Source: Pseudodesulfovibrio sp. | GTDB taxonomy: Bacteria > Desulfobacterota > Desulfovibrionia > Desulfovibrionales > Desulfovibrionaceae | Direction of reading: 5' to 3' | Length of the DNA: 32,912 bases | NCBI GenBank assembly: GCA_016342345.1 | Contig: JAEINO010000042.1 | Span: 1 to 32,912 of the forward strand | Part shown: piece after piece, positions 633-20,476 of the stretch | How positions within the stretch are numbered: the first letter of the stretch is position 1 | How the letters are laid out: the number at the start of each line of letters is the position of its first letter | Translations under genes and position numbers: made by a program | Notes under the pieces: model-generated | Database searches by the model: none | Told to the model about the DNA's origin: nothing | Seen by the model: the letters and a program-made list of their open reading frames with translations, nothing else

Positions 633-1451
633 ATGAAGATAGCTGGAGTGTCCATACTTATCTGTGCTTGTTTGCTTAGCGGGTTTTGCCTGGCTTTTGG
701 CCAGTCGCAAAAACAGGCAGATGGACCGCAGCCTGCAGTCGATTGCTCTAAGGTAGGGGTCGATTTTGTGGACGACCCGAACATGACCCGTGAAGAGCGT
801 CTGGAAGCGATGGATCGTGCCCTGCAGAGATCTCTCGGCCTATATGACGAGTGTCAGCAAATCATGTCCAGCGGAGGAGGTGCCAGTTCTGCATCCGGTG
901 CGGGCTCCGGCGGTATGGTTGGGGCTGGCTCTGGCGGTGGGTCAGGTGAAGGCAGTGAGTCTGCCGCATCAGGCGCACAGGGCAAGGTTGGGCAAGAAGG
1001 TTCGGCTGGTGAAGACAGCGAATCTGCCGTATCAGGCGCACAGGGCAAGGTTGGGCAAGAAGGTTCGGCTGGTAAAATAGGAGAAGAGGCCCCTGTCGCA
1101 TCCGTGGCCACTTCTGACATTCAAGGAACGGGAGGCTCAAAGAGCAGTTCTGTTCTCGCCAGCAGTTCTAAGGAATCCGAACAAGAAGACGGAGCTGAAG
1201 GTTCTGACCAAGATGGTCAACTGACACCCCGAAAGGCAGGGGATAACGCACGAGCCGATGGGGGACAAGACTCCACCCGAAAGAGCTCAAACGGAAACAA
1301 TGGAACCACTCCAGAGGACGTACAGGAAGCCGACAACGACAGCGTTCTTGAAGCGCAGATTCGTGAGGCCGCAATGAGAGAAAAGGACCCGGAGGTACGA
1401 GCCCGTCTATGGAATGAATATCGCCGATACAAAGGGTTGCCACAGAAATAA
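633..1451 (+). CDS. exported low-complexity Gly/Ser/Glu-rich protein
   Basis: This is a 272-residue protein I do not recognise. An N-terminal hydrophobic segment (about residues 4-22, ending near AFGQ) looks like a Sec signal peptide; there is no proper lipobox. A short helical part carrying DDPNMTREERLEAMDRAL follows. Next comes a long Gly/Ser/Glu-rich disordered middle with a 21-residue unit present twice (DNA 957-1079), and then a charged C-terminal helix (REKDPEVRARLWNEYRR). I chose ATG 633 because GGGAAAGG lies just upstream and because an in-frame ATG at 591 falls ahead of the predicted transcript start. As first gene of the run it would place a flexible, probably periplasmic protein in the same system as the ExbB/vWA genes downstream. 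Its role is unknown. Confidence 0.72.
   Translation: MKIAGVSILICACLLSGFCLAFGQSQKQADGPQPAVDCSKVGVDFVDDPNMTREERLEAMDRALQRSLGLYDECQQIMSSGGGASSASGAGSGGMVGAGSGGGSGEGSESAASGAQGKVGQEGSAGEDSESAVSGAQGKVGQEGSAGKIGEEAPVASVATSDIQGTGGSKSSSVLASSSKESEQEDGAEGSDQDGQLTPRKAGDNARADGGQDSTRKSSNGNNGTTPEDVQEADNDSVLEAQIREAAMREKDPEVRARLWNEYRRYKGLPQK
957..1079 (+). repeat. two 63-bp tandem repeats inside the first operon gene
   Basis: Two nearly identical units begin near 957 and 1020 and encode ESAASGAQGKVGQEGSAG and ESAVSGAQGKVGQEGSAG. The near-identity at DNA level suggests a recent duplication in a length-variable linker. Confidence 0.8.
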
Positions 1452-1481
1452 GCTGTCTTTATCCGGAGCAAGGAGTAGCGC

Positions 1482-2738
1482 ATGAAGTCGCTCAAAAAAA
1501 TAACAACGAATATGATGATCCTATGGCTGTGTTCATTCATGGCTCTGGGGGGCTGTAAGACCCTCGGCACCAGCTCTCTTCCCCCCATTGGCCCTCCTTC
1601 CTCTTTGGAAACAACAGAGGTTACTGAGCAAATGACGGTTGAGATCGAGATCAGCAATAGGCCCCGGATGGACGTGATTGTTCCGGTGTTTGATCCGAAC
1701 CTACCGGATGCTAATGACAACGATAAAGAAGAGGGAATTTGGCCCGAATTGCGTCGAGCTGAGGCAAAAAGATTCGCTTACAAGATGAAGCTGGCACTTG
1801 AGCAGACCCGCTCATTTGGGGCAGTACGAGTGACGCCCGACGCCACTGCCACCGGTGAGATATATGTCATAGGCAAAATCATCGAATCCAATGGTATGGA
1901 TGTCGAGATTGAGGTCTCGGTTATGGATATTTCCGGTCATACCTGGTTCACCAAGTCCTTCGACCATGAGGTGAACGAGAAATACTTCGACTCAGAACGT
2001 AACAAGGGCAAGGACCCGTATGAACCGATATTTACAGCGGCGGCTCAGTATATTGTCGAGGAACTGAAGGATCAGGACGTTAAGCGTGCCGAGAATCTCA
2101 AGCGTTTGTCAAAGCTTCGTTTTGGTGCCAATTTTTCTGAGGCCTACTTCTCCCAGTATATTGATGAAAAGGGCGGCAAGGTCCGCATCACCGCCTACCC
2201 CGACTCCAGGGACACCATGATGACCCGAATCGAGGCCATTCGGTATCGAGATCAGATGTTTGTGGACGGCCTGCAGGACAACTACCGAGCTTTCAGCGAC
2301 AAGATGGATGAGTCCTACATAATCTGGCAAGAGTCGGCTCTTAATGAACAGGTAGCCATAGCCGAGGTACGTCGAAAGTCTTTTGGTCAGGCCATTGGTG
2401 GTATTCTTTTGGTGGCACTGGCTGTGGGTGCTGTGGCTGTGTCGGGAGATGGTAAGATCTTATCCGATACGACTGGAGCCATCGCGGGGGCGACCTTGGC
2501 CGTTGTGGGTGCAGCCAAACTTATGGAAGCAGCTGATACGGCAGAAGAGGCGGAGTTCCACAAGGAGTCATTGAACGAGCTTGGGGAATCCTTGGACATT
2601 GAACTCGGCCCACAGGTGGTAGAATTCGAAAGCCAGACTGAGGAAATTACCGGCTCGGCCAAGGAGCAATTCGGTCAGTGGCGGCAATTCCTGCAGCGTA
2701 TCTACGATCAGGAAAAGACTCCTGACGTGCAACTCTAG
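1482..2738 (+). CDS. lipoprotein with two glycine-rich hydrophobic segments
   Basis: A 418-residue protein with a clear lipoprotein signal: a hydrophobic N-terminus followed by the lipobox LGGC with Cys25 as the lipidated residue. An AAGGAG ribosome site precedes ATG 1482. Residues about 60-200 alternate short strands and helices (AEAKRFAYKMKLALEQT, GEIYVIGKIIESNG, DISGHTWFTKSF) and loosely recall periplasmic lipoproteins that bind partners with alpha/beta domains. I cannot assign a family. Two Gly/Ala-rich hydrophobic stretches (about 302-320 and 330-347) could insert in or pack against a membrane. It starts 30 bases after the previous stop and ends directly at the next start, so it is surely co-transcribed. 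I infer a membrane-attached envelope component of the ExbB/vWA system. Confidence 0.78.
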   Translation: MKSLKKITTNMMILWLCSFMALGGCKTLGTSSLPPIGPPSSLETTEVTEQMTVEIEISNRPRMDVIVPVFDPNLPDANDNDKEEGIWPELRRAEAKRFAYKMKLALEQTRSFGAVRVTPDATATGEIYVIGKIIESNGMDVEIEVSVMDISGHTWFTKSFDHEVNEKYFDSERNKGKDPYEPIFTAAAQYIVEELKDQDVKRAENLKRLSKLRFGANFSEAYFSQYIDEKGGKVRITAYPDSRDTMMTRIEAIRYRDQMFVDGLQDNYRAFSDKMDESYIIWQESALNEQVAIAEVRRKSFGQAIGGILLVALAVGAVAVSGDGKILSDTTGAIAGATLAVVGAAKLMEAADTAEEAEFHKESLNELGESLDIELGPQVVEFESQTEEITGSAKEQFGQWRQFLQRIYDQEKTPDVQL

Positions 2739-4295
2739 GTGTCTGGGCTGCCCGCCATGCTTGAAGACAAACTAAAAAGCTCAAAGCAGAATTCGAACAA
2801 TGTGGTCCTCATTCTTTTGGCATCCATCGTTGTTCTCCTCGTCCTTGGCGGGTTGTTGACTGCTGAGTTCATATTCAACCCGGATAGTCACCAAGGGTCA
2901 GCGCATGGCTCAGAGGAACTCCAACAAGATGCGCTCGGTTTGGAGGCTCAGCCTAAACCCTCCAAGGCCATGGATGACTCCTTAAAAAAAGGTGCGGAGC
3001 AAACACAAACATCATCAGCTCAGGTGCGGCCTGTTTATCCTGACAATGGCAGGCTAGAATCCACAGAAGAAGAGCGTAAAGCATTCAAGTCCACGCTTCT
3101 TGAATATGAATCGACGATCAAGGCACTTGTTGAATCGCCCGAGTTCACAGCCTGGGACGCGTCTTCGCAAAAGCGGTTCTTGCAGATGAAAGATCAAATA
3201 ATGGGCGACGTTGGGGCTGGTGAATATGCTCGTGCCCGCGACGAACTGGCTGAGCTTATCCGTCAAGCTACGAAAGTGATTAGCGAGCGGGACGCCGCTG
3301 TGGAGGAGGGCATCCAACAGACGAGAATTGCCCTAAAGGAGAATGCGCCGCAAAAGGCACTCGCTCATTTTTCAAGGGCACAGGAGCTTGCACCGCATTT
3401 GCCTGAAGTATTGGAGCTAGAACCTCGGGTGGCAATCCTGCCGCAGGTAGTGGAATTGCTCGATCAGGCACACCTAGCGCAGGTCCAGGGTGATACGAAA
3501 AGCGAGTTGGTGGCCTGGAAAGAAATAGCAAAAATCGATCCGACTCGCAGTGAAGCCAAGGACAGGATCATCATGATTCAGGACAGGCTTTTTCAGCAGA
3601 CACTCTCGGTACACCTGCAAAAGACTATGGCAGCCATTGAGGTCCGCCAGCCGGATGCGGCCCAGAAAAGCTTGGACAAGGCTCGCAAGATGGCTCCCAA
3701 ACTTGATGAGGTAGCCCTTCTTCAGCGTGAGATCGACACGCTCGCCAAAGAGCTTCGTTACAACGAATTTATCAATCAGGCGAGAGCATACGAAGTCAAG
3801 GATGATTGGTCCAGAGTCTTGTCCTCCTACAATGATGCAGCGACGATCAATCGTTCTTCAGCCGAAGTTGCAAACGGCATTAAGCGGGCCCAGGCCGTTT
3901 TAGGGATTCGTGCCGCCATCAATGAGAAACTGGGAACTCCATACAGGCTGTCCACCAAAATTGGTGAGAAACAAGCCCGCGAGCTTCTGCAAAATGTCAG
4001 AGGGGTCTTTGAAATCAGCCCGTCCATGGTGGTGCTGGCACAGAAACTGGAAGGGCTTCTGCAAATATATACTACGCCTGTGATGGTTCGCATCACCTCT
4101 GACGGCGAGACATTTGTGCAAGTCAAGGGCGTGGGTAAAGTCGGCAAGGTTACTGAAAAAAACATCCGAATCCGTCCAGGGCGCTATACCTTTGAAGGTA
4201 ACCGGGACGGGTTTGTGTCGAAGGCAACAACAGTTGATATTCCGCCTTCTGGCAAACCTATGGTGGTCAATGTGGTTTGTGAGAATGCCATCTGA
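2739..4295 (+). CDS. membrane-anchored helical-repeat protein with C-terminal PEGA-like domain
   Basis: A 518-residue protein with one transmembrane helix near the N-terminus (about residues 21-43), so most of it should be periplasmic. Residues about 110-420 are almost wholly helical, with TPR-like elements such as ENAPQKALAHFSRAQELAP and QPDAAQKSLDKARKMAPKL. The last 70 residues (VMVRITSDGETFV, IRIRPGRYTFEGNRDGFVSK) have the strand pattern of a PEGA-type beta domain. The GTG at 2739 touches the preceding stop, which suggests translational coupling. The ATG at 2757 is an alternative start giving six fewer residues, and neither has a strong ribosome site. The TPR-like region is a likely scaffold. 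The PEGA-like end is shared in kind with the next gene. Confidence 0.75.
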   Translation: MSGLPAMLEDKLKSSKQNSNNVVLILLASIVVLLVLGGLLTAEFIFNPDSHQGSAHGSEELQQDALGLEAQPKPSKAMDDSLKKGAEQTQTSSAQVRPVYPDNGRLESTEEERKAFKSTLLEYESTIKALVESPEFTAWDASSQKRFLQMKDQIMGDVGAGEYARARDELAELIRQATKVISERDAAVEEGIQQTRIALKENAPQKALAHFSRAQELAPHLPEVLELEPRVAILPQVVELLDQAHLAQVQGDTKSELVAWKEIAKIDPTRSEAKDRIIMIQDRLFQQTLSVHLQKTMAAIEVRQPDAAQKSLDKARKMAPKLDEVALLQREIDTLAKELRYNEFINQARAYEVKDDWSRVLSSYNDAATINRSSAEVANGIKRAQAVLGIRAAINEKLGTPYRLSTKIGEKQARELLQNVRGVFEISPSMVVLAQKLEGLLQIYTTPVMVRITSDGETFVQVKGVGKVGKVTEKNIRIRPGRYTFEGNRDGFVSKATTVDIPPSGKPMVVNVVCENAI

Positions 4296-4467
4296 GGGGG
4301 CGTGCAAGACGGGCATGGCTAGGCACAAAAATCGGCTTCACACTAAAGCGACGCAAGGTTGATTCATCATTTTTTCTAGTGTTTGTATGTGCGGCTCTTT
4401 GTGTCAGACTCCTTCGACCGTGAGCCTGACCAAGTTGTAGTTCACGACCAGATGGAGAAGAGCCAAA
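4296..4467 (+). other. 172-bp gap inside the operon
   Basis: This is the only sizeable gap in the gene run. I see no reading frame over 20 codons with a ribosome site and no clear terminator. It could carry an internal promoter, but no good -35/-10 pair stands out. Confidence 0.4.
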
Positions 4468-6567
4468 ATGGCGATTAAAAAGGACCAGTTTCGAGAAGCT
4501 TTGCGCGCCGGGCGAAGTCAGAACAGCGACAGGCAAGAGCCAGAATTGAACAAGCGACTAACGCAACGGTTGCAGCAGGAACAGGCGCAGCAGCGCAGAT
4601 TACTCCTGGTGATCGGCGTGGTAGTGGGTCTGTTTCTTACGGTGGTGGCTGCTCTCGTCTATACAGCAGAAGGAACGACTGTTCTTGTCGAACCACAAGA
4701 GGCCGCAGAAAACGCTTCTGTAAGTATTGATGGATTCGGTCTCCTCTTGGGTGACTACGCCCTCGTCTTTAGTTCTGACCCCGCAGTCATTATCTCCTCT
4801 CCCGGCTACAAAACGACCAGAGCCGACTTTCCAAGCGGGGAGGAAGAAAGTCTGCTTGTCATCCTTCAAGAAAGCCCTGCCAAGTTATCGTTGAGGGTGG
4901 AGCCTGCATATGAAGACGCCAGGTGGACGTTGAACGGAATACTGGCTGGGACAGGGGCAACTCTCGAAAAAGAGGTTCCTGCCGGCGATTATGAACTCAA
5001 GGTAGCAAGCCTTTCCTTTATGCCGATGGATCGCAGCTTCACTGTAGAACGAGGTCAAGATTTTCAGGAGCTTTTCTTAGTTGAGCCGGTAAAGGGGCAC
5101 CTTGATCTGGCATCCACACCTACAGGGGCGACAATTTATCTCAACGGTGAGGATATCGGCAGCACGCCCCAGACCATAGAGGTTCCTGGTGGGAAGTACG
5201 AGGTCAAGGTCAGCCTAGTAGAGTACTCGCCTGTCATTGAAACGATAACCATCACCTCCGCCAAGACTACAGCCAAGCGCGAGTACCATCTCTCCCTGCT
5301 ACCAGGGGAGCTGACAGTCAACGTCTCGCCCAAAGGCGGCGTTCTTTTGGTCAATGGACTCAAGGCAACACCAGCCATGGGCAAAATCGTGCCCGTGCGA
5401 AAAAAAGTACTCATTTCCTATCAAGTACCAGGGTTTAGCAAGAAGACCGAATCAGTGACATTTGCCCCTGGCGAAAAACGTACCATCACCATGGACCTCA
5501 AGGCCGAGAATGGTGTTGTGGAAATTACATCGACCCCCGTGGCCCAAGTAGTAATGAACGGGGTAACTCTGGGGCAGGTGCCGCTCAAGGTATCCATGCC
5601 AACCGTGGAGCAAACCATTATCCTGCAGGCCAAGGGGTATGAAGCGGTCACGAGAAAGGTGATTCCCAAGAAGGGAGTGACGACTCAGGTACATGTCAAG
5701 CTTGTATCGAAAAAACAGGTGTCCATGGACAAGGCGGCGCAAGCTGCCCAGAGCGGGGGAAAGGGGAGTATTGTCGGTATGGACATGGCTCTTTTCAAGC
5801 CCGGTGGGGATGTATTTATTATGGGAGCTCCCCGCCATGAGCAGGGGCAGCGTGCAAATGAATTTCAACGCAAGGTTAAGCTGGTGCGTCCGTTTCTGGC
5901 TGGCAAATATGAAGTCACCAATGGGCAATATGCTCGGTTCAAAGGTGGTGTACAGGGGCCCCAAGACCAGCCGGTGGTGAACGTGACCTGGCTGGAGGCT
6001 GCGGCTTTCTGCAATTGGCTGAGTGTGCAAGAAAATCTGCCGGAGTTCTATGTGATTCAGGAGGGGCGGCTGCGCGGGATGAACAAGAAATCGAACGGCT
6101 ATCGGCTACCCACGGAAGCCGAGTGGGAATGGCTTGCTCGAAAAGCTGGACGCAGGCAACAGACGGTTTTTCCTTGGGGTGACACGGACGCGATCCCCGA
6201 GGACGCGGGCAATATCGCCGACGAATCTGCTCAGGGGAAAACTAGATTCTTCGTGCCGGGGTACAATGACAACCACGCGGGCCTTGCTGTTGCGGGTTCC
6301 TTCAAGCCGAATAAATCAGGTCTTCATGATCTGACCGGCAACGTTGCCGAGTGGGTGAACGATCTCTACTCGTGGCAGGTGCCCAAAGCTGGTCAGCTTC
6401 TCATCGATCCCCTTGGCCCTGTGGCTGGGGACAGGCACGTTTACAAAGGCTCCAGTTGGCGATCCGGTACGCGCACGCCTCTTCGGGCCGCTTATCGGGA
6501 ACCCTCTTCCCAAGGGAAGGACGATCTTGGATTTAGAGTCGCCAGGTACGTGTGCGTTGACGAATAA
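4468..6567 (+). CDS. membrane-anchored PEGA-repeat protein with C-terminal SUMF1/FGE-fold domain
   Basis: A 699-residue protein. A charged cytoplasmic stretch of about 44 residues is followed by one transmembrane helix (45-66), then several PEGA-like beta domains. The clearest are at about 210-280 (LASTPTGATIYLNGEDIGSTP), 281-345 and 350-415 (ITSTPVAQVVMNGVTLGQVP). Residues about 435-695 form a SUMF1/FGE-sulfatase domain with the family hallmarks KYEVTNGQYARF, YRLPTEAEWEWLARKAG, FPWGD, GLHDLTGNVAEWVND, GSSWRSG and DLGFRVAR. The paired cysteines of true formylglycine-generating enzymes, expected after the GSSW segment, are absent. The domain is therefore more likely a binding fold than an enzyme. 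GGAGAAG precedes ATG 4468. PEGA domains often lie in surface or envelope proteins; here they would form a periplasmic stalk carrying the SUMF1 domain. Confidence 0.88.
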   Translation: MAIKKDQFREALRAGRSQNSDRQEPELNKRLTQRLQQEQAQQRRLLLVIGVVVGLFLTVVAALVYTAEGTTVLVEPQEAAENASVSIDGFGLLLGDYALVFSSDPAVIISSPGYKTTRADFPSGEEESLLVILQESPAKLSLRVEPAYEDARWTLNGILAGTGATLEKEVPAGDYELKVASLSFMPMDRSFTVERGQDFQELFLVEPVKGHLDLASTPTGATIYLNGEDIGSTPQTIEVPGGKYEVKVSLVEYSPVIETITITSAKTTAKREYHLSLLPGELTVNVSPKGGVLLVNGLKATPAMGKIVPVRKKVLISYQVPGFSKKTESVTFAPGEKRTITMDLKAENGVVEITSTPVAQVVMNGVTLGQVPLKVSMPTVEQTIILQAKGYEAVTRKVIPKKGVTTQVHVKLVSKKQVSMDKAAQAAQSGGKGSIVGMDMALFKPGGDVFIMGAPRHEQGQRANEFQRKVKLVRPFLAGKYEVTNGQYARFKGGVQGPQDQPVVNVTWLEAAAFCNWLSVQENLPEFYVIQEGRLRGMNKKSNGYRLPTEAEWEWLARKAGRRQQTVFPWGDTDAIPEDAGNIADESAQGKTRFFVPGYNDNHAGLAVAGSFKPNKSGLHDLTGNVAEWVNDLYSWQVPKAGQLLIDPLGPVAGDRHVYKGSSWRSGTRTPLRAAYREPSSQGKDDLGFRVARYVCVDE

Positions 6568-6581
6568 TGGAGGAATCAAGA

Positions 6582-6725
6582 GTGAAATTCAAAACCAAAA
6601 AAATGCTCTTTATCGCGGGCATTGTCGCCCTAATAACGACGATTGCTTTTGGCATAGCCACAGCACGATCCAATCAGTCGTTTTTCAGCCTGAACACCCC
6701 GGCTTCGTTTCCGGTAGACATCTAG
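6582..6725 (+). CDS. 47-residue membrane microprotein
   Basis: A short gene between the SUMF1-domain gene and the ExbB-type gene. GTG 6582 has GGAGG (6569-6573) eight bases upstream. The product has a basic N-terminus (KFKTKK) followed by one hydrophobic span (MLFIAGIVALITTIAFGIA) and a short polar tail ending FPVDI. An in-frame ATG at 6567 overlapping the preceding stop would add five residues but has no ribosome site. The stop at 6723-6725 lies nine bases before the next start, so spacing on both sides is what an operon gene would have. It resembles small single-span accessory subunits that sit beside membrane complexes. The function is unknown, and a simple exported peptide is the alternative. 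Confidence 0.6.
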   Translation: MKFKTKKMLFIAGIVALITTIAFGIATARSNQSFFSLNTPASFPVDI

Positions 6726-6734
6726 GAGACCTGC

Positions 6735-7541
6735 ATGGGCACTATGATCAAGAATCTCTTGGCGCTGGTCGCCTCTGTCGTCGTGGTCCACATAAGCTAC
6801 CTAGCCTACATTCGGCCACAGGCAAACAAACTGATCGATGCCGCGCGTGCGGCTGGCCAGGCCCCTCCCCGGGACCTTACAATTATCTTACGGGACTATG
6901 AGCAGGAAATATGCATCATTTTGCTTCTGTGGGGCGCATTTCTTATTGTCTCAAAATGCTTGGACATCATTCGAAAGGAACGTCACCTGTTCAATCTTGA
7001 TCTCTACAAAGAGGCCGAAGAACATGCCATTGAGATTTCCAAGGAAAGCGGGGGGACCGACGTCAGTCAAAAAGATATCCTCGATGGCCTCGATAGCCTT
7101 CCCAAAAATCTGCGCGATACAGCCTTACTCAGCGTGTTGCGTGCAGGTCTTCGCCGCTATTTGATCACCGGCAACGTTCAAAATGCTGCAGATGCCATCG
7201 AGTCAGGCGTTGAGGCTTTCGGCTCTCGTATAGACGCGGAAAACTCGATGATTCGTTACATCATCTGGGCGATTCCGAGTATCGGCTTCCTTGGCACCGT
7301 CCGGGGCATCGGCGAGGCTCTTTCGCAGGCCAACCAGGCGCTTTCCGGAGATATTGGGGGCATGACCGGTAGCCTGGGCGTGGCCTTCAACTCCACGTTG
7401 GTGGCTTTGCTCATCTCCATCGTACTCATGTTTATGCTGCATCAGCTCCAGCGGCTACAGGACGGTCTGCTCGTTGACACCCAGAGCTACTGTGAAGAGA
7501 TACTTCTGAACCGGATCAGTCGGGTTGATGAAGCGGCGTAG
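6735..7541 (+). CDS. MotA/TolQ/ExbB-family proton-channel subunit
   Basis: A 268-residue inner-membrane protein with transmembrane helices at about 6-25, 57-78, 172-193 and 214-238. The last two carry the family core IPSIGFLGTVRGI and GSLGVAFNSTLVALLISI. The cytoplasmic stretch of about 90 residues between helices 2 and 3 contains SQKDILDGLDSLPKNLRDTAL. Family members form pentamers around two copies of a one-helix partner (MotB, TolR or ExbD) and use ion flow to drive motion in the envelope. AGGAG lies just ahead of ATG 6735. Its 3' end overlaps the next gene by 14 bases, and that gene encodes the ExbD-like partner expected of such a channel. It lacks the large cytoplasmic domain of flagellar MotA, so it is closer to TolQ/ExbB in size. 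Confidence 0.93.
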   Translation: MGTMIKNLLALVASVVVVHISYLAYIRPQANKLIDAARAAGQAPPRDLTIILRDYEQEICIILLLWGAFLIVSKCLDIIRKERHLFNLDLYKEAEEHAIEISKESGGTDVSQKDILDGLDSLPKNLRDTALLSVLRAGLRRYLITGNVQNAADAIESGVEAFGSRIDAENSMIRYIIWAIPSIGFLGTVRGIGEALSQANQALSGDIGGMTGSLGVAFNSTLVALLISIVLMFMLHQLQRLQDGLLVDTQSYCEEILLNRISRVDEAA

Positions 7542-8601
7542 AAACAGAAACATCGCAGGTTCAAACCTGGCGTTTCTTGATGTCCTGGCTTGTGGCTTGG
7601 GAGCGGTAGTACTGTTGCTGACGCTCGCTCAGGAGCAGGTGTTCGGCCTCAACGGCGAAGAGCAGCGGTTGACCACGGAGTTGGTCGAGTTGCAGAGTAG
7701 CACCTCTGAAATCGAGAAGGAGATCGCCAGGATTACCAAGGTCGGTCAAGCGGTCAGTGATGAAATCATCAAAACCTCCGAGGCGTTGGCAGTGGTAAAG
7801 GACCAGGCTGCCCGCCAGTCGGACGTGGCCGACACAGAGCGTAAGAATAAGGCCTCGCTCATCGAAGGCATCAAGAAGATCAAGCTGAACAATCCAGAGG
7901 ACGTGATAGAAACGCCCGATCAGTCCGGCGAGGAAGACTATCTCATCGGCCTGAAGGTTGAAGGTCAGCGTATTGCCATTCTCGTAGATTCCAGCGCTTC
8001 CATGACTGACGAAAATCTTATCGACATCATACGGCGCAAGAATTCGTCTGCTGAGGAGAAAAAGAAGGGGCCCAAATGGCGTCGAACGATACGCATCCTT
8101 CGCTGGCTGTTGGCCAGGCTTCCCAAAAACGCACAGGTGGCCGTCGTTGTCTATAACGAAAATGCCAAGAACCTCAGTAAGCGGCCATGGACCAGAGCAA
8201 ACGATGAGAAGGGACTGACTACCATCCTGTCAAATGCCAATGCACTCGTACCCAGTGGTCCCACCAATCTGTCCAATGGACTCAAAGTCATTAAAGAACT
8301 CAATCCGTCTGATTTGTACGTCATCACCGACGGGCTACCAACTAAGGGGGATTCCGGCTGGGGGCGGCTCAACGTGTTTTCTGGCTGTAACTCCATCTTG
8401 GGCAGCTCAAGCAAAATATCAGGCGAGTGCCGAGCCCGGGTGTTTGTGGAAAGTATAAAACATAGCGGATTGCCGCGCTCTCGCAAGGTAAACGTGATTT
8501 TGCTTCCAATCGAAGGAGACCCCCATGCTCCCAGGTATTACTGGGAGTGGACGGCATTAACCGGCGGGCTGCTCATTGCACCTGCCCAGGATTGGCCATG
8601 A
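7528..8601 (+). CDS. ExbD-like transmembrane helix - coiled coil - von Willebrand A protein (first copy)
   Basis: A 357-residue protein. A basic start (MKRRRNRN) is followed by a single helix, AFLDVLACGLGAVVLLLTL (15-33). Its Asp18 sits like the proton-carrying Asp of ExbD/TolR (motif FIDV) and MotB. Residues about 40-115 form a coiled coil (LTTELVELQSSTSEIEKEI). The vWA domain (about 145-357) has the metal-site motif DSSAS, a candidate Thr in SGPTNLSNGL, and the third-motif Asp in YVITDGLPTKG, so metal-dependent ligand binding looks intact. The gene overlaps the ExbB-type gene by 14 bases. I infer that it replaces ExbD/MotB in this complex and presents the vWA domain in the periplasm. A TTG one codon upstream is an alternative start. 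Confidence 0.88.
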   Translation: MKRRRNRNIAGSNLAFLDVLACGLGAVVLLLTLAQEQVFGLNGEEQRLTTELVELQSSTSEIEKEIARITKVGQAVSDEIIKTSEALAVVKDQAARQSDVADTERKNKASLIEGIKKIKLNNPEDVIETPDQSGEEDYLIGLKVEGQRIAILVDSSASMTDENLIDIIRRKNSSAEEKKKGPKWRRTIRILRWLLARLPKNAQVAVVVYNENAKNLSKRPWTRANDEKGLTTILSNANALVPSGPTNLSNGLKVIKELNPSDLYVITDGLPTKGDSGWGRLNVFSGCNSILGSSSKISGECRARVFVESIKHSGLPRSRKVNVILLPIEGDPHAPRYYWEWTALTGGLLIAPAQDWP

Positions 8602-9551
8602 GAAGAAAGAACCGCGAACTGGACATTTTCAGTCTGTCGTTTCTTGACGTTTTTGCGTGTGCTTTGGGGGCATCCATTCTGTTGGTGTTGATTTCAAACT
8701 TCAATAAGAGCAACGCTGTCGTCCCGGCAACAGAGGGGATCGAGGACAAGCTCGAATTGATCCTCTCCGAGGAGAAGAAGTTTCAAGGTCTTGAGCAGGT
8801 CCTCGCCGAAAGGACGCAGGGCCTTTCGGACAGCAGGCTGCTTCTGCAGCGTCTGAAACAATTCATGGCCGACCAGAAAATGGGAGTCGGGGCGACTAGC
8901 CAGGAGCTGGACAAACTCCAAGAGGAGAATGAAGGCCTTGCTCTGGTGCAGTCGTCGCTGACGAAGTCCGCAGCCATCAAGCCGAGTTCTGCCACTGTGC
9001 GCGACAAAGAAGAAGTGGGTGGTATTCCGGTGGACAGTGAGTATATCATATTCATAATCGATACGTCGGGCAGCATGAAGGCAATTTGGTCCCGGGTGCT
9101 ACGGGAGATGGAGCACATTCTGGAGATTCATCCACAGGTGAAGGGTTTTCAGGTGCTCAACGACAACGGATTTCATGCCCTTTCCGGGTATAAGGGAAAG
9201 TGGATTCCGGACTCCAAGTCGCGGCGCAAGGCCATTTTGAGGCGCTTGGACGATTGGGACCGTGCTTCCAACAGCAGTCCGGTGGAGGGGCTTGAGAAGG
9301 CGTTGCGGCAATATGCACTCAAGGCAACCACCCTCTCAATCTACATTATCGGCGATGACTACTCGGGAGCGGCGTTCGATCAGGCCCTAGACTCCATCAA
9401 CCGGTTGAACAGGTCTGGGAGCAGAGGAAAGCGCCATGCCAAAATCCACGCGGTCGGGTTCTTGTCGGAAAACACCACGGGACGGTTTCCCATTCTCATG
9501 ACGGAAGTGACAAGGCAAAATGGTGGAACGTTCATAGCGCTGCCGTACTAA
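8598..9551 (+). CDS. ExbD-like transmembrane helix - coiled coil - von Willebrand A protein (second copy)
   Basis: A 317-residue paralogue of the preceding protein with the same layout: MRRKNREL, helix SLSFLDVFACALGASILLVLI (12-32) with Asp17 in the FLDV motif, a helical/coiled-coil part about 45-120, and a vWA domain about 145-317. The first metal motif DTSGS is present. The second-motif threonine is not obvious (NSSPVEGLEKAL) and the third motif reads IIGDDYSG, so metal binding may differ from the first copy. ATG 8598 overlaps the previous TGA as ATGA, so the two are translationally coupled. Because ExbB/MotA-type channels hold two one-helix subunits, two unlike paralogues could form a heterodimer; this is inference. 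It is the last gene of the run. Confidence 0.88.
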   Translation: MRRKNRELDIFSLSFLDVFACALGASILLVLISNFNKSNAVVPATEGIEDKLELILSEEKKFQGLEQVLAERTQGLSDSRLLLQRLKQFMADQKMGVGATSQELDKLQEENEGLALVQSSLTKSAAIKPSSATVRDKEEVGGIPVDSEYIIFIIDTSGSMKAIWSRVLREMEHILEIHPQVKGFQVLNDNGFHALSGYKGKWIPDSKSRRKAILRRLDDWDRASNSSPVEGLEKALRQYALKATTLSIYIIGDDYSGAAFDQALDSINRLNRSGSRGKRHAKIHAVGFLSENTTGRFPILMTEVTRQNGGTFIALPY

Positions 9552-9555
9552 CCTC

Positions 9556-9713
9556 TAGGGAAGTACTGATTAATTCAATTTTCAGGAAGTGTTGTAGAAT
9601 TATTCGCTGGCAAGGCGCAAGAAAACCTCAAGGCCGACGCGTACTTCCTGTACGCTAGGATTTGATGTTTTTAAAGCAACGAAGCCAGCGGACAATTATG
9701 CAGTGCTTCCCTA
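9556..9713 (+). mobile_element. 158-bp palindromic MITE-like element, left copy
   Basis: It begins TAGGGAAGTACTG and ends CAGTGCTTCCCTA, an imperfect terminal inverted repeat with TA at both tips. A subterminal pair, TTATTCGCTGGC and its inverse GCCAGCGGACAA, adds to the palindrome. It carries no gene. A second copy of exactly the same length lies inverted at 18860-19017. It starts five bases after the vWA operon ends. Its hairpin could also stop transcription. Confidence 0.8.
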
Positions 9714-9883
9714 GGGGGAGCCCATTTAGTATGATGAACAACTGGGGCCAAGACAAGCCTAGAAGAGAATCCAAAGGAAAGGATAGCTCTTCGTAGTTTT
9801 TCTGGGTCGTAATAGTTGTCTCGCCATTCAAATCACTCATACTGGAGGTTTCTCTGTCTTAGGGGCCAGTGCTGCTCGCGTTA
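9714..9883. other. flank between the MITE copy and the CRISPR array
   Basis: No confident gene. A minus-strand frame starting at 9840 (MSDLNGETTITTQ) runs into the MITE at 9713 and could be the N-terminal stub of a gene cut by the element. I do not recognise it. This is the leader-distal (trailer) side of the array. Confidence 0.3.
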
Positions 9884-11042
9884 GTTTCAATCCACGCCCC
9901 CGTGTAGGGGGCGACTTTTAATCTTGTGTTCAAAATTTTTTATTATTTCGTTTCAATCCACGCCCCCGTGTAGGGGGCGACACTCACCGGACTTAGCCCA
10001 AGCCCGCACCACAAAGTTTCAATCCACGCCCCCGTGTAGGGGGCGACATCCTGCAGCCCACTCCGCGTGGGTTGATAGCCAGTTTTAATCCACGCCCCCG
10101 TGTAGGGGGCGACCGTCTGAGCATGGGTCAACTTTTGTCCACGATATTGTTTCAATCCACGCCCCCGTGTAGGGGGCGACTATCTGAGCGGATGTATGGC
10201 CTTGGTAGTATCCAGTTTCAATCCACGCCCCCGTGTAGGGGGCGACTGGCCCGGTAAGACGATCTATGGAGATATCAAGGGTTTCAATCCACGCCCCCGT
10301 GTAGGGGGCGACGTGCGCTGGAGATTCCGGCAGGCAGCACCGAGGGCGTTTCAATCCACGCCCCCGTGTAGGGGGCGACGTTACTGCGACGCTCATAGGC
10401 ACATTGGAGAACAGTTTCAATCCACGCCCCCGTGTAGGGGGCGACACCGCAACGAGGTCGAGGCCGGGTTGCGGCGAGAGTTTCAATCCACGCCCCCGTG
10501 TAGGGGGCGACTGACAGTAAGACTACCGAGTCTCAAATCCTTGCAGTTTCAATCCACGCCCCCGTGTAGGGGGCGACCACACCGGACAAAATAGCCAAGA
10601 CCAGCAAACAAGTTTCAATCCACGCCCCCGTGTAGGGGGCGACTTTTGTGATGAACTAAACTTATTACAAGATAAGTTGTTTCAATCCACGCCCCCGTGT
10701 AGGGGGCGACTCAACAGTGGATCCGGTAAAGCCGGTGACAACGCGTTTCAATCCACGCCCCCGTGTAGGGGGCGACAGCGTTGGACACTCTGTCTGAATG
10801 GCGAGAGCTTGTTTCAATCCACGCCCCCGTGTAGGGGGCGACCATTGCTGAAATACGACCCCGTTACGCACTCATTGTTTCAATCCACGCCCCCGTGTAG
10901 GGGGCGACCAGAGATAACGCTGTCAAACTCAGTCAGCAAGAAAGTTTCAATCCACGCCCCCGTGTAGGGGGCGACGCCCTGAACCTGTCTAGATTCGGGC
11001 TGTGATTGTTGTTTCAATCCACGCCCCCGTGTAGGGGGCGAC
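9884..11042 (-). CRISPR. type I-C CRISPR array, 18 repeats and 17 spacers
   Basis: Eighteen 32-bp repeats alternate with 17 spacers of 34-35 bp. In plus orientation the repeat starts GTTTCAATCCACG and ends GTAGGGGGCGAC, with a 7-bp CGCCCCC/GGGGGCG stem. On the minus strand each repeat ends in GGATTGAAAC, the usual I-C crRNA 5' tag, so transcription should run from 11042 toward 9884. That places the leader at 11043-11219, next to cas2. Repeat starts are 9884, 9950, 10016, 10082, 10149, 10215, 10281, 10348, 10414, 10480, 10546, 10612, 10679, 10745, 10811, 10877, 10944 and 11011. Only the repeat at 10082 differs (T for C at its fifth base). No spacer matches the rest of the window by eye. Confidence 0.98.
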
Positions 11043-11219
11043 GGTGGAGTGTTGAAGTCCTTTGGTGGTGCGTGTTATGAGATGCGGAATCGCGAACCGT
11101 AAACACAGCAACACTCCGAAAAATGTTTTTTCTATGTAATAAGTTGTAACATTTTGTTATTATTGAAAATCTAAGCGGTGCGAACTTCCCGGCATTTTGC
11201 GAACAGCTTGGGGTTCGCA
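11043..11219 (-). promoter_or_regulatory. CRISPR leader
   Basis: This non-coding stretch lies between the end of cas2 and the first repeat, with an AT-rich core (about 11125-11172). It holds a 9-bp inverted repeat, GGAGTGTTG (11046-11054) and CAACACTCC (11109-11117), beside the repeat-proximal end. The hexamer GCGAAC occurs three times (11092, 11180, 11199), and its inverse lies at 11213-11218, reaching into the end of cas2. Position and composition fit the leader holding the pre-crRNA promoter and the spacer-insertion signals. I did not find a convincing -35/-10 pair. Confidence 0.75.
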
Positions 11220-11513
11220 CTACAGAATCAGGACGTCTGTTTCCGGATCATATGTACTCCCGCAGCCATGCTGCTCCACCCGGCGTTGCCAGTTTTTGCC
11301 CAAAAAATAAAAACGAAGGTTGTCCCTTTCTTCGGCGTAAGCCTCCAGCAGGCGATGTCGCAATTGAGCCCATTGGGCCGGGTCAACCACACATTCAAAT
11401 ACGGAATATTGAACGCGTTGCCCATAGCTTTCGCAAATTTTGGCAATCCTGCGGAGGCGGCGTGGACCGCCCGAATCCTCGAAACTAACGTCATAACTTA
11501 CCAGAACAAGCAT
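11220..11513 (-). CDS. cas2: CRISPR-associated endoribonuclease Cas2
   Basis: A 97-residue protein of normal Cas2 length. It opens MLVLVSYDVS, with the strand-ending Asp8 typical of the family, followed by RRLRRIAKICESYGQRVQYSVFEC and LRFYFLGKNW. Cas2 forms the central dimer of the Cas1-Cas2 complex that inserts new spacers at the leader end of the array, which lies directly downstream. It begins two bases after the cas1 stop and is the last gene of the cas operon. The stop overlaps the inverted GCGAAC motif cluster of the leader region. Confidence 0.96.
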   Translation of the reverse strand: MLVLVSYDVSFEDSGGPRRLRRIAKICESYGQRVQYSVFECVVDPAQWAQLRHRLLEAYAEERDNLRFYFLGKNWQRRVEQHGCGSTYDPETDVLIL

Positions 11514-11515
11514 AC

Positions 11516-12547
11516 TTATTTCCAGAAATATGGCGGGTAACCATCCAAATCACCACGGATGCACCGTGCCATCAGTTGCGCCTGCACATGAAACGCAAGG
11601 CCAATGGGGATGCGCTCATTGAGAAATGGATGTGTGACTTCGTCCTGCTTGCGCTTTTGCCATGCAGTCAAAACCACTTTTCGTGTGTCATCGTCCATAA
11701 ATACAGCACCACTTTCCTTGCGCACAAAACCCCGTGCGCGGACCTCTCCACGGTTGATGAGTGACAAGACCAGCCTGTCCGCCAAAAAGGAACGAAATTC
11801 CTCCATCACGTCCAGAGCGAGGCCCGGTCGCCCCGGTCTGTCGCGATGTAGAAAACCCACTTGCGGATCAAGCCCTACCGCCTCCAGCGCAGATCGGATG
11901 TCATGTGCCAGCAAGGTGTATACGAACGAAAGCAGGCAGTTGACTGCGTCCAGTGGAGGTCGGCGGTTTCGACCATTGAAGAAAAATGTTTCCCGTCCCT
12001 GCAAAATTGTCTGATCAAACACCGAAAAATAGGCGTTTGCCGCTTGTCCTTCCATGCCACGTGCCTCTTCCACGGAGAGATCTGACCGCAGGCGTTGGGC
12101 ACTGTCGTCAAGGGAGGAAATCACTTGCTTGACGGCGGCTGCGTTTACGCGGTCCCCATGATCGCGCAGACAACGCCGCAGTACGGCTCGTGAATTGGCG
12201 ACCTTGCCTGCAATGACAGATCGCGCCATGCTCGCTGAGGCTCTGGAATCGTCCGCCTGCCGGTATTGCGCTCGGCGGAGCAGGACATTTCCGCTCTGCG
12301 GACCGCGCACTCCCGCAAGAAATCGTCCCCGCTCGGTCAGAAAGGACAGCGTCACTCCCTTTTCCCCGCAATGTCCGAGCAGAAACGGGCTGCATAGTAC
12401 ATTGCCGAAGCAGACAATGCCGTCGAGCACATGGACGGGGAATCGTTTTTTATCGCCATCCTCGGAGCGCACCACAACGCATTCACCATCTTTGGAGAGA
12501 TAGCTACCCTGCGATGTGACGTAGAGCGTGTTTAATAATTTTTTCAT
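11516..12547 (-). CDS. cas1: CRISPR-associated integrase Cas1 (type I-C)
   Basis: A 343-residue protein starting MKKLLNTLYVTSQGSYLSKDG, typical of I-C Cas1. The C-terminal helical domain has LLSFVYTLLAHDIRSALEAVGLDP and the metal-site segment GFLHRDRPGRPGLALDVMEEFR, with the conserved His and Asp. It inserts protospacer DNA at the leader-repeat junction together with Cas2. The ATG at 12547 shares its A with the cas4 stop (TAATG), which fixes this start over longer frames running back to 12604. The length is normal and I see no broken motif. Confidence 0.96.
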   Translation of the reverse strand: MKKLLNTLYVTSQGSYLSKDGECVVVRSEDGDKKRFPVHVLDGIVCFGNVLCSPFLLGHCGEKGVTLSFLTERGRFLAGVRGPQSGNVLLRRAQYRQADDSRASASMARSVIAGKVANSRAVLRRCLRDHGDRVNAAAVKQVISSLDDSAQRLRSDLSVEEARGMEGQAANAYFSVFDQTILQGRETFFFNGRNRRPPLDAVNCLLSFVYTLLAHDIRSALEAVGLDPQVGFLHRDRPGRPGLALDVMEEFRSFLADRLVLSLINRGEVRARGFVRKESGAVFMDDDTRKVVLTAWQKRKQDEVTHPFLNERIPIGLAFHVQAQLMARCIRGDLDGYPPYFWK

Positions 12548-13155
12548 TACTCCAGCCCGTTGAGTAGGTAGGTTGTCACATTCTTGCGAGTTTTGGGCAT
12601 ACATGCCTCCTTTAATGAACAGCCCCGGCAGCGCGTGCCGAAATTGGCCACAGGGATCGTTCCGCTTTCGATCATCACATGCATGGCGTTGCAGTTTCGT
12701 TCAACCGCGTCACGTAGTTCGTTGTCCAAAGTGACGCGTTCCCGGCGGCGGGGTTTGCCATAGAAAATGGCTCCATGCCTAATGGTTACGCCGAGCATCT
12801 CCTCTAGACATATCGCCTGTGCACAAAGCTGTGCGCGGTCCCAGTCCTCAATCTTGGGGCTGCCGCGTTTGTATTCCACCGGATAAGGAATTTTTTGGCC
12901 ATCCGGTCCGGGCCGCATTTCCACAACGTCGGTAATGCCATACAGTCCCAGTCGTTGACTTCGTATGGGTACGGTCCGGTCTTCGGCAATGCCTCCGCGC
13001 CGCCCGGAAGCCCCGGAATCGGCGCGGAGGTGCAAAAGCCTTCCTTCGGTGGTGAATCGGTTTTCGATCCACACTTTTTCCACATGAATCAGCGCGCATT
13101 GCCGGGGGCAATACATATAGTGCTGCAATGCAGAAAGCGGCAGGGTGCGGTCCAT
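12547..13155 (-). CDS. cas4: CRISPR-associated exonuclease Cas4 (type I-C)
   Basis: A 202-residue protein with the iron-sulfur cysteines in place: YCPRQC near the N-terminus (second Cys is first ligand) and CRGCSLKEAC at the C-terminus. The RecB-like nuclease core shows YGITDVVE and PVEYKRG. In I-C systems Cas4 acts with Cas1 to trim prespacers and select those with the right PAM and orientation. It starts two bases after the cas7 stop and overlaps cas1 by one base. All key residues expected of an active enzyme are visible. Confidence 0.95.
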   Translation of the reverse strand: MDRTLPLSALQHYMYCPRQCALIHVEKVWIENRFTTEGRLLHLRADSGASGRRGGIAEDRTVPIRSQRLGLYGITDVVEMRPGPDGQKIPYPVEYKRGSPKIEDWDRAQLCAQAICLEEMLGVTIRHGAIFYGKPRRRERVTLDNELRDAVERNCNAMHVMIESGTIPVANFGTRCRGCSLKEACMPKTRKNVTTYLLNGLE

Positions 13156-13157
13156 GG

Positions 13158-14030
13158 CTAGAAGTGTATTTTCATTGCGACCTCGGCGGGGATGGCGGAT
13201 TCGTCCACGGCAACTGTATAATCCTTGAATGCCCGGGCCGGGCCGTCGCCGTTTCGTGAGATGGTCACGGCTTCGAACAGCGTGTGTGCCGGGGCATTGC
13301 CCAGCGTATCTTGGTGCTTGAACACGACCAGGCCGCGTGCGCTCATCTTGCCCCGTGCGGCCGAGTGGTCGTGGTCAAACATGTTTGTCAATGCCTGCCA
13401 GAACAGTGCAAGGTCGTCCTCGGAAAATCCGGTTCCCTTGTCGCCAGCGGCAAGATGTGCGGAGATAAACCCTTCGGCCCGGTACAGAGCATAAGGCACA
13501 ATGTGTTTGCGGCCCATGGTGCGGTTGTCGCCATCCTGCGCCTTGGCCTCCTTCTCGGTTTCCACGGCCATACGGGTGATGGAAATCTCGGCGGGAATGA
13601 TCGGCTCCACGCTCTTGGCAAAGGTCAACTGCACGGGGCCGCGCACCTGGCCGCAGTTGTTTTCTTTGGTGGACATGACCGCCCCAAAGGTTCGTACATC
13701 AAAGAAGTTGGCGCACATCCACTTGCGGGCAGCGGTAATTTGATCTTCTTTTTTTGTGAGTTTCTTGACCTCTTCGGTCTTGTACGCAGGCTCGCGTGTC
13801 AGAGAAAGAACACCTTTTTCTGCAATGTAAATGTTGTAGCCTTCCTTTCCGGGCTTGGCTATTTCCACAAAGTTGCGAATTTTGCGTTTCAGGCAGACAT
13901 CGGTGACCAAGCCGTGGCCGGTTTCCGGGTCTATGCGCGGGGTGTTGCCCGCATCAGGGTCGCCGTTGGGGTTGCCGTTTTCCACGTCGAACAGGTAGAC
14001 GAATTCATAGCGATTGTTGATGATGGTCAT
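13158..14030 (-). CDS. cas7c: type I-C Cascade backbone protein Cas7 (Csd2)
   Basis: A 290-residue protein with the Csd2/Csh2 hallmark near the N-terminus, YLFDVENGNPNGDPDAGNTP, then LVTDVCLKRKIRNF, FFDVRTFGAVMST, GPVQLTFAKSVEPI and GRKHIVPYALYRAEGFI. Several copies bind along the crRNA spacer and form the filament of the interference complex. GGAGG lies upstream of the ATG within the end of cas8c, and the gap between the genes is only three bases. Length is normal for the family. Confidence 0.96.
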   Translation of the reverse strand: MTIINNRYEFVYLFDVENGNPNGDPDAGNTPRIDPETGHGLVTDVCLKRKIRNFVEIAKPGKEGYNIYIAEKGVLSLTREPAYKTEEVKKLTKKEDQITAARKWMCANFFDVRTFGAVMSTKENNCGQVRGPVQLTFAKSVEPIIPAEISITRMAVETEKEAKAQDGDNRTMGRKHIVPYALYRAEGFISAHLAAGDKGTGFSEDDLALFWQALTNMFDHDHSAARGKMSARGLVVFKHQDTLGNAPAHTLFEAVTISRNGDGPARAFKDYTVAVDESAIPAEVAMKIHF

Positions 14031-14033
14031 GGT

Positions 14034-15749
14034 TTAGTCCTCCGTTTTATTGTCTTTTTTGGTAAAAAAATCCTGGCGCTGCTGATAGTATCCGAGGATG
14101 AACATTCCCTGCTTTTCCGATGACATGGAAGCCGGGAATCCGGTTGATGCGTCAATACCGCCAATGATGTCCTGAATCTGTTTTTCGAGAGTGACAGCCC
14201 ATCCTGGTTTGTCTTTGCGAATCTTTGCCAGCCCGTGCTGGGCGTTTTTGAGAATGATGGGGAACGACCGCCCCGGCGTTGCCGCGGCCGAGCTGAAAAA
14301 GCGGTCACGTACCGTGGCGTTTGCGCCGGGAATAGCTTCTTCCTGAATCCGTTCAACAATGGCAAAAAGTCTGCCTAGACGGTAGCCGATGTCCGTGTTT
14401 GTCGTATCAAGTGTCATATGAATCTCCTGGTTCCTGTTGCGAACGAGAAAGGCCTTTATGATTGCCGCCCGCAGATAATTGATTTCTCTGTCGGCTCGGA
14501 TGCGCCCGAGGACCGCTGAGAGAAGTGTCTGCGGGTACGGCTGATTATGAGTGATGGCGCGGAGGAGTTGGCCGGACAGAAGCGGCGAGATGTTTTTGGA
14601 GTCCCGCTGCGGGGCCAATTCCCTGAGCAACTGCCATGGAGTAGGGTGCTCGGGATCGGCATCGAAACGACGTTGCAAGGTCAGTGCCCGGTAATGCTTC
14701 CCGAGGTTCTCTGCCATATCGCCCACGGTTGTCACATGCCAGAACCGCACGGAGATGCGTGCTGCATTCGGTGACAGGCCGAGTACGTAAAACGGGACAT
14801 CCTCCCGTCCCAACTCCTGCGGGTATTTCCCTTTGGAAATAGTCGACAGATAGCTTTCCAGCCGGTTGATCAGAGCTTCGTCTTCGGCTTTTTTGGCGCC
14901 CATGCCGAAGGCGAACAATGTGTGGGCTTCGCCCGGACCGTCGGACCAGAACACGATGGTCGTGTCGCCTACCTGCACCTTGTGGTTGCTGTTCGGGGCG
15001 AGCAGGTGATTCAGGGCCGTGGTGTAAGCAAAGGCGGCCAACTCCGAAACCGGGGCGTTCCGGTTCTGCTTTTTGCCGAACGAAATCGCTGCATCAAAGT
15101 TGAATGAAATGATCGAGGCCCCCGCGGTCTGCGCGCCCGGTACGCCCTTGATTTTGGCATGTGTTGACGGGATGGGAGCCTGCTCGCCCGTGACCAGGCA
15201 CATGGCCGTGTCACCGCCTTCGGCGGCAGCACAATGATTGCACCACGCCTTACGAAACGCGGGGCGGTCGTGCAGAAATCCGGGTTCGCCATCGAGCTGG
15301 AAGACGATGTTCCAGCCGATGATTTCTTCCCATCCATGCAAAGCCTCTGCCTGTCCCGGTTCCCACATTTCAAGAAACGCTAGCAGGGATCTTGCGCCTT
15401 CGTCCTCCACGCCTTCCAGCACGGCCATTGTCTTTTTTTTGAAGGCCTCATGGGTTTGCGTCGTGCGTTCGGGCTTGCCCTTGTCGTCAGCGCCGAGCAC
15501 GTAGCCGGTGTTGTCCCAGGCAAAATTCGACGCAACTCCAGACGCACGCACCACCGGTCCCGGCACCTCGATACGCCGTGCCCTTCCTTTTTCGTCGCGC
15601 AGGTCCAATGGTTTGCCCACCAGTTGCCCCTGCTGGTCCAGCGTCAGGCAGAAATGCACTCCCTGCCTGCCAAAACCATATTCCGGCACATCCGCATCCG
15701 GGTCTTCCCGCAGGAGGTTGTAATATTGATTCAATGCGTAAAGAATCAT
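14034..15749 (-). CDS. cas8c: type I-C Cascade large subunit Cas8c (Csd1)
   Basis: A 571-residue protein of the Csd1 family: it opens MILYALNQYYNLLREDPD and contains CLVTGEQAPIPSTHAKIKGVPGAQTAGASIISFN and PNSNHKVQVGDTTIVFWSDG, segments typical of Csd1, with QTLLSAVLGRIRADREINYLRAAIIKAF toward the C-terminus. The large subunit recognises the PAM and helps recruit Cas3. In I-C systems an internal translation start within cas8c can also yield a small Cas11-like subunit, which would come from the C-terminal part here. The start overlaps the cas5 stop by four bases (ATGA). Confidence 0.96.
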   Translation of the reverse strand: MILYALNQYYNLLREDPDADVPEYGFGRQGVHFCLTLDQQGQLVGKPLDLRDEKGRARRIEVPGPVVRASGVASNFAWDNTGYVLGADDKGKPERTTQTHEAFKKKTMAVLEGVEDEGARSLLAFLEMWEPGQAEALHGWEEIIGWNIVFQLDGEPGFLHDRPAFRKAWCNHCAAAEGGDTAMCLVTGEQAPIPSTHAKIKGVPGAQTAGASIISFNFDAAISFGKKQNRNAPVSELAAFAYTTALNHLLAPNSNHKVQVGDTTIVFWSDGPGEAHTLFAFGMGAKKAEDEALINRLESYLSTISKGKYPQELGREDVPFYVLGLSPNAARISVRFWHVTTVGDMAENLGKHYRALTLQRRFDADPEHPTPWQLLRELAPQRDSKNISPLLSGQLLRAITHNQPYPQTLLSAVLGRIRADREINYLRAAIIKAFLVRNRNQEIHMTLDTTNTDIGYRLGRLFAIVERIQEEAIPGANATVRDRFFSSAAATPGRSFPIILKNAQHGLAKIRKDKPGWAVTLEKQIQDIIGGIDASTGFPASMSSEKQGMFILGYYQQRQDFFTKKDNKTED

Positions 15750-16405: not shown

Positions 16406-16432
16406 GAATTTCACCTCCGTGTTTTTATGTAC

Positions 16433-18601: not shown

Positions 18602-18652
18602 TATATGCTCCCATTTTATGAGTTCAATTAACATACAAAAAAAGGTAAGCAA

Positions 18653-18682
18653 ATAGTACATACCGAATAATTATTGTTTCAA
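18653..18682 (-). promoter_or_regulatory. putative promoter of the cas operon
   Basis: On the minus strand TTGAAA (18682-18677) and TACTAT (18658-18653) are separated by 18 bases, placing a transcript start near 18646, just ahead of cas3. Pattern match only. Confidence 0.5.
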
Positions 18683-20474: not shown

Positions 20475-20476
20475 TC

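Follow-up and report, generated by a model that had tools for sequence, protein, structure and literature searches.

Seven-gene cluster in Pseudodesulfovibrio

The analysed stretch of Pseudodesulfovibrio sp. DNA (the window; 32,912 nucleotides, contig JAEINO010000042.1) contains a cluster of seven plus-strand genes, g1–g7, at positions 633..9551. The cluster combines a TolQ/ExbB-like channel subunit, two proteins in which an ExbD-like transpore helix is joined to a vWA domain and four envelope proteins. The gene set, its domain types and a small number of threonine, aspartate and metal ion-dependent adhesion site (MIDAS) residues are conserved in related loci, and the cluster is tentatively interpreted below as one trans-envelope machine.

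The occurrence of the genes was evaluated in two sets of loci. A g5 alignment scan of named genomes yielded at least 571 confirmed relatives, and the best 80 of these, a selection that leans to close relatives, were kept together with as much as 10 kb of flanking sequence in either direction (the near set). Gene profiles were built from single matches above 60 bits. The second set consists of 23 regions fetched from whole-genome searches, most of which are distant, with L139 and L160 being of the near type. The genes of the window and their occurrence in the 80 near loci are as follows.

633..1451, + strand: g1, secreted Gly/Ser-rich protein of 272 residues; 60/80 loci
1482..2738, + strand: g2, probable outer-membrane lipoprotein; 69/80 loci
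2739..4295, + strand: g3, TPR-like protein, probably anchored in the inner membrane; 73/80 loci
4468..6567, + strand: g4, transmembrane segment, three PEGA domains and a C-terminal SUMF1/FGE-like domain, 699 residues; 79/80 loci
6735..7541, + strand: g5, TolQ/ExbB-like channel subunit; 80/80 loci
7528..8601, + strand: g6, ExbD-like transpore helix, coiled-coil stalk and vWA domain; 78/80 loci
8598..9551, + strand: g7, second, divergent transpore-helix vWA protein with a coiled-coil stalk; 75/80 loci

The genes are separated by small gaps (30 bp between g1 and g2, 0 between g2 and g3, 172 bp between g3 and g4 and 167 bp between g4 and g5) or overlap (14 nt for g5-g6 and 4 nt for g6-g7). The starts of g1, g6 and g7 (633, 7528 and 8598) are selected ATGs, where the open reading frame (ORF) list has 591, 7525 and 8547. 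A preceding interpretation of the letters alone (the sequence-only reading) had recognized this compact same-strand run correctly but counted eight genes, five of them encoding envelope proteins in front of the core. Seven genes with four such envelope proteins are found, and the PEGA and SUMF1 domains reside in a single protein, g4. Among the matches listed, the closest named relative is Pseudodesulfovibrio sp. zrk46 (84% in g6 and 87% in g5).

Motor core g5–g7

The g5 protein matches MotA_ExbB (PF01618) with 52.5 bits at a curated cut-off of 22.9, in agreement with its earlier assignment as a MotA/TolQ/ExbB protein, and carries an extra N-terminal hydrophobic helix. TolQ is the closest protein to g5 in structure, and TolQ and ExbB fit better than ZorA (14.8/13.6 vs 10.4). 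PorL/GldL is not among the structural matches listed for g5, which does not amount to an exclusion. The g5 and g6 profiles gave no match among PDB sequences. Two putative pore residues of g5, Thr188 and Thr221, which we take to correspond to the pore threonines of TolQ/ExbB, are kept in all 81 near rows and all 22 second-set rows.

Both g6 and g7 contain an FLDV motif near the N-terminus, with the aspartate at position 18 in g6 and 17 in g7. The g6 Asp is present in 63/63 rows that cover the position and in 23/23 second-set rows; the remaining 15 of the 78 near g6 rows have a gap there, owing to the choice of ORF start. The g7 Asp is present in 75/75 near rows and 22/22 second-set rows. The sequence-only reading had staked its interpretation on the conservation of this Asp across homologues, and the residue is kept in every row in which it is covered. 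An Asp and Thr pair of this type forms the energy-converting core of MotB/ExbD/TolR-type motors. The two arms share 16/32 residues in the transpore helix only. The helix is followed by a coiled coil of about 81 residues in g6 and about 99 residues in g7, and the hydrophobic heptad signal exceeds that of the row's own shuffle in 77/78 g6 rows and 74/75 g7 rows, which bears out the coiled coils proposed earlier.

A vWA domain had been assigned to both arms. The assignment is secure for g6 (VWA_2, 35.4 bits, Pfam cut-off 27), which has a complete MIDAS. The window g7 protein gives a weak match below the cut-off (Pfam E 0.007), and the vWA assignment is backed by the g7 family, in which the D-S-S and D residues of the MIDAS are kept and a Ser replaces the MIDAS Thr of g6. 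Neither arm shows PF02472 or an OmpA-type periplasmic domain; their matches are to vWA-type or weak other models. Among 651 ORFs flanking the 80 loci, a crude motif scan found no ExbD-like ORF of 110–180 residues. Together with the presence of g6 and g7 in nearly all loci, this agrees with the expectation that the ExbB-type gene does not, as a rule, have an ExbD partner elsewhere.

Envelope proteins g1–g4

The most constant envelope protein is g4, in which the PEGA (99.5 bits) and FGE-sulfatase/SUMF1 (129.3 bits) domains named by the sequence-only reading are both clear in Pfam. With one hydrophobic segment, preceded by ~42 residues, and no lipobox at its start, g4 looks anchored in the inner membrane. 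The FGE-like domain lacks the catalytic cysteines of FGE, as judged from an alignment to human FGE. Columns 662–673 contain no Cys in 78 near rows and 19 second-set rows, and in one near row a Cys occurs within 655–685. With NCBIfam TIGR03525 (PorK/GldK), g4 scores 90.8 bits, below the cut-off of 350. PorK ranks first when residues 488–693 are compared, but FGE ranks first for the C-terminal 160 residues, and PorK was consequently not upheld as a special relative of g4. In PHROGs, a generic match to phrog_18508 alone was obtained, for the FGE region of g4.

The TPR character of g3 is weak in the window protein (Pfam E 0.023, under the cut-off) and is supported by the family, with TPR_2 detected in 11 of 24 proteins; the earlier TPR-like label thus holds at the family level. 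The C-terminal region of g3 is conserved, and its sequence suggests that the protein is probably anchored in the inner membrane. In L087, the g3 ORF (5468-7750) matches a NERD (nuclease-related) domain with an E of 8.5e-11.

The g2 protein has a lipobox at Cys25 and is a probable outer-membrane lipoprotein. Residues ~58–198 form a PelC/CsgG/FlgT/TolB-N-like domain, and the rest contains long helices and a low-confidence hydrophobic hairpin at ~305–345. The matched domain is also present in the non-exporters FlgT, TolB, LptE and PqiC. Membership of g2 in TolB or CsgG was rejected, as the fold is in common and nothing more, and Foldseek gave no match at E <= 0.001. The g2 profile found no match among PDB sequences at E 1. 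The g1 protein begins with a signal-peptide-like sequence and ends in the conserved motif DND..AQIR.AA..E.DP..RLWNEYRRYKG. Its gene holds a duplicated 63-bp unit, and a Pfam scan of g1 returned no convincing family.

Recurrence of the gene set

All seven genes are found in 58 of the 80 near loci, 54 of which have the order g1–g7. The other four are rearranged: three have g4–g7 followed by inverted g3–g1, and in one g6 and g7 are inverted too. Of the 47 loci in which g5 is flanked by >=6.5 kb on the upstream and >=2.5 kb on the downstream side, 43 are complete. The incomplete four are L080, L083 and L086, a Kordiimonas-type group without a recognizable g1 (L083 also contains some N), and L087, whose g7 region is masked in the record. 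L029 and L030 represent one system present in two bins, and L034 equals L139. The second set contains 13/23 regions with all seven genes, and eight regions are truncated where the contig or the fetched stretch stops. At the expected place of g1, L145 shows a g1-like C-terminus, and g2 and g5 were not found in L152. Because the same genes occur in the same order across many genomes, the cluster is not a chance arrangement.

According to record titles, carriers include Alpha-, Beta- and Gammaproteobacteria, Mariprofundus, Desulfobacterota-type bacteria, a Binatota metagenome-assembled genome (MAG) and a few others, and the named isolates include Methylophaga, Magnetovibrio, Arenicella, Denitrobaculum and Aestuariispira. 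The Rhodospirillaceae MAG SI072_bin63 contains two different full copies (L029 and L031). Counting the centre genome in each case, g6 alignment matches occur in 20/274 genomes of the Methylophaga class (Gammaproteobacteria) and 5/289 of the Magnetovibrio class (Alphaproteobacteria), both at E <= 1e-8, and in 5/297 genomes of the window's phylum at E <= 1e-15.

Within the window's genus, a single-protein search located g6 in 2/25 genomes; a third match, in G004, was treated as spurious (E 5e-4, 21%, four stops). A quickly built g4 tree pairs the window with its congener (100), inside a moderately supported fork (87) that is largely pseudomonadotal. The rows next closest by path come from a gammaproteobacterial MAG and from Mariprofundus; the other Desulfobacterota rows lie in separate groups. 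This placement and the patchy occurrence in the genus point to a lateral acquisition of the module. Phage or plasmid carriage in general was rejected: none of 57 pattern-matching viral stretches is a relative, and the three plasmid matches have 30–33% identity and cover <=55% of g5. Recurrent flanks outside the module are common families (e.g. an ABC ATPase-like cluster in 15/80 loci) or shared neighbourhoods of close relatives. The exceptions are an eighth gene and downstream lipoprotein-like genes in some Gammaproteobacteria.

Gammaproteobacterial variants

The eighth gene occurs in 9/23 second-set regions, all from the Gammaproteobacteria search, and Arenicella xantha is one carrier. In seven regions its neighbours are g5 and g6; in L150 and L152, in which g5 has moved or was not detected, it sits between g4 and g6. 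Eight of the proteins cluster together, and the ninth (L145) matches their profile. Six were scanned: two contain an FHA domain (E 2e-12 and 5e-12), and one gives an Hsp70 match below the cut-off. The profile had no match among PDB sequences and did not find the gene in the window's genome; in G549, two weak profile matches (E 4e-4 and 7e-4) lie away from the locus.

The two loci with clear FHA domains, L153 and L154, also have a g3 with a protein kinase at its N-terminus (E 4e-29 and 3e-30), an arrangement seen in 2 of the 28 distinct g3 proteins scanned. The kinase motifs VALK, HRDIK and DFG are intact in L154, and L153 is without HRD. The FHA/Hsp70-like gene and the kinase domain on g3 in two loci suggest that the machine may be under phospho-control in some Gammaproteobacteria. 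One or two conserved lipoprotein-like genes are located directly 3' of g7 in L143, L144, L146, L147 and L153 and are possible extra parts of the machine.

Surroundings of the cluster

Positions 1–106 of the window, at the start of the contig, hold the 3' end of a transfer-messenger RNA (tmRNA) gene with its 5' part cut off (Rfam RF00023, E 1.1e-5, 22.1 bits, below the gathering score). Counting this copy, the genome contains the final 25 bases of the tmRNA gene six times with <=1 mismatch, as expected of ssrA attachment-site remnants, and the operon begins about 530 bp after the tmRNA end. Based on these three observations, the operon may lie inside an ssrA island. Directly after g7, a 166-bp element (9552-9717) resembles a miniature inverted-repeat transposable element, with 24-nt imperfect inverted repeats (83% complementary). 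It is followed at 9890-18661 by a CRISPR array and minus-strand cas genes (Cas1, Cas4, Cas7, Csd1, Cas5 and Cas3-like), a make-up that we take to be type I-C. A degraded resistance-nodulation-division (RND) efflux locus occupies 19422-22890, where the outer-membrane factor ORF is without its first part and the RND permease is split over two frames and ends early. Positions 22990-32816 encode a two-partner secretion (TPS) pair of a 2648-residue TPS-domain hemagglutinin-repeat protein and a ShlB-type transporter.

Proposed trans-envelope machine and its alternatives

The seven genes are tentatively proposed to encode one trans-envelope machine, in which an ion-driven g5–g7 motor acts on a g4/g3 hub linked to g2 and g1 (rough probability 0.45). 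In this machine, g5 subunits, presumably five, would assemble in the inner membrane into an ion channel of the TolQ/ExbB type. Its pore would be occupied by a heterodimer of the g6 and g7 N-terminal helices, each contributing a proton-binding Asp, and ion flow would turn or tilt the helix pair. Through the two coiled-coil stalks, this movement would reach the periplasm and the two dissimilar vWA heads, each with a MIDAS; the heads would act on a hub of g4 (PEGA and an FGE pseudoenzyme) and g3 (TPR). The hub would be joined to the outer-membrane lipoprotein g2, whose fold is PelC/CsgG/FlgT-like, a fold of which several members make rings, and to the secreted g1. Some Gammaproteobacteria would add the FHA/Hsp70-like protein and, in two loci, the kinase domain on g3.

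The components of this proposal differ in strength. That g5, g6 and g7 constitute a motor is likely, and a g4/g3 hub that is driven by the motor and linked to g2 is plausible. We infer the stoichiometry, the motion, the hub contacts and the outer-membrane output. The force-generating complex of the sequence-only reading agrees in part: the two findings that would have refuted it, an unconserved FLDV Asp and a usual ExbD pairing elsewhere, did not turn up, and force generation itself stays inferential. Its periplasmic scaffold is compatible with the cysteine-free FGE fold of g4, the inner-membrane look of g3 and g4 and the outer-membrane look of g2. The g4 sequence shows no consistent preference for PorK, which weighs against the proposed machine, lowers its odds and those of the bolder version described next, and slightly raises those of the tether, sensor/channel and export alternatives. 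The bolder version is rather unlikely. It envisages a third rotary-type envelope machine beside Tol/Ton and the type IX secretion system (T9SS), whose two different vWA arms would 'walk', using a metal to grip an FGE-fold/PEGA hub that connects to g2, and which would be spread across Pseudomonadota and laterally beyond and kinase/FHA-switched in some Gammaproteobacteria.

The same parts could serve a Tol-Pal-like tether, with the vWA heads gripping g2 via the MIDAS and pulling to strain or stabilize the envelope and with g3 and g4 as accessories. This is rather unlikely: no TolA, Pal, TolB-propeller or OmpA-type domain is reported for the seven proteins at the cut-offs, and a tether gives no reason for g4 being conserved to the same extent as the motor. 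A non-rotating device, either a regulated ion channel or a signalling scaffold, in which a vWA/PEGA/TPR/FGE periplasmic sensor gates g5, would account for the signalling domains of the kinase and FHA variants, and MIDAS-bearing vWA domains are usually binding modules. However, the invariant transpore Asp and the Thr pair are those of an energy-converting motor, and two different arms are retained, which makes this alternative improbable.

Even less probable is export of a protein or polymer, with g2 as a PelC/CsgG-like outer-membrane ring, g1 as the dedicated substrate and the motor as the power source, since no outer-membrane beta-barrel domain is reported for the seven proteins and the g2 domain is found in non-exporters too. 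The adjacent CRISPR-cas locus and a weak ZorA match of g5 (PADLOC, E 2.6e-4, 18 bits) could indicate a Zorya-like phage-defence motor. Such a role is very improbable and a defence system was rejected, given that the other six proteins have no PADLOC match at E 0.1, that g5 resembles TolQ/ExbB more than ZorA and that the large domains are predicted to be periplasmic.

Comparison with known systems

Envelope motors of the MotAB, ExbBD and TolQR kind power motility, uptake, division and secretion. The motor core of the cluster is already known as a prediction, and calling it undescribed, as the sequence-only reading did, is too strong: Williams-Jones et al. (Mol Biol Evol 2025, PMC12204202) predicted and modelled TolQ-like pentamers with heterologous transpore-helix (TPH) vWA pairs, without a function, and stated the Asp/Thr energy-converting core for this class. 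Like these TPH-vWA transducers, as presented in the main text of that paper, the cluster has a TolQ-like gene without a neighbouring tolR/exbD, a Thr ring, a heterologous vWA pair, an ExbD-like helix and a conserved Asp, and it occurs in Proteobacteria. It differs in its SUMF1, PEGA, lipoprotein and secreted partners: SUMF1 and PEGA are absent from the main text of PMC12204202, and section 8 describes no partner of any of these four kinds for the family, although the gene maps may show neighbours. Idiomarina, the source of the seed locus in that paper, does not appear by name among the 120 matches listed per vWA search, most of which are nameless. In the literature searched, which includes PMC12421860 and PMC12635249 but few subscription papers and preprints, PMC12204202 was the one paper on such motor and domain combinations judged relevant among those listed (another being PMC7159879, on vWA conflict systems), and it yielded no description of the seven-gene set. 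What the present analysis adds is the fixed seven-gene set, the FGE fold of g4 without cysteines, the g2 domain and the variants. A fixed module in named isolates makes a predicted, functionless motor class directly testable and ties it to specific partners.

The cluster shares with MotAB/PomAB stators and ZorAB the same Asp/Thr core and arms that reach into the periplasm. As in Tol-Pal, a TolQ-like subunit is accompanied by an outer-membrane lipoprotein partner, but vWA heads take the place of the TolR periplasmic domain. The PorKLMN (GldKLMN) system of T9SS and gliding likewise combines an inner-membrane motor driven by the proton-motive force with a periplasmic FGE-fold protein without catalytic cysteines, PorK. 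In contrast to PorKLMN, the motor subunits here are TolQ/vWA rather than PorL/PorM, and g4 has a transmembrane anchor and PEGA domains and no lipid anchor; domain library scans reported no PorN or Sov family for the seven proteins. If the proposed machine is correct, a motor-driven FGE-fold hub would exist beyond the T9SS phyla, which raises the question of whether the hub principle is confined to them. The cluster would then follow the same logic as the T9SS energy chain, in which a motor drives an FGE-fold hub, using different parts.

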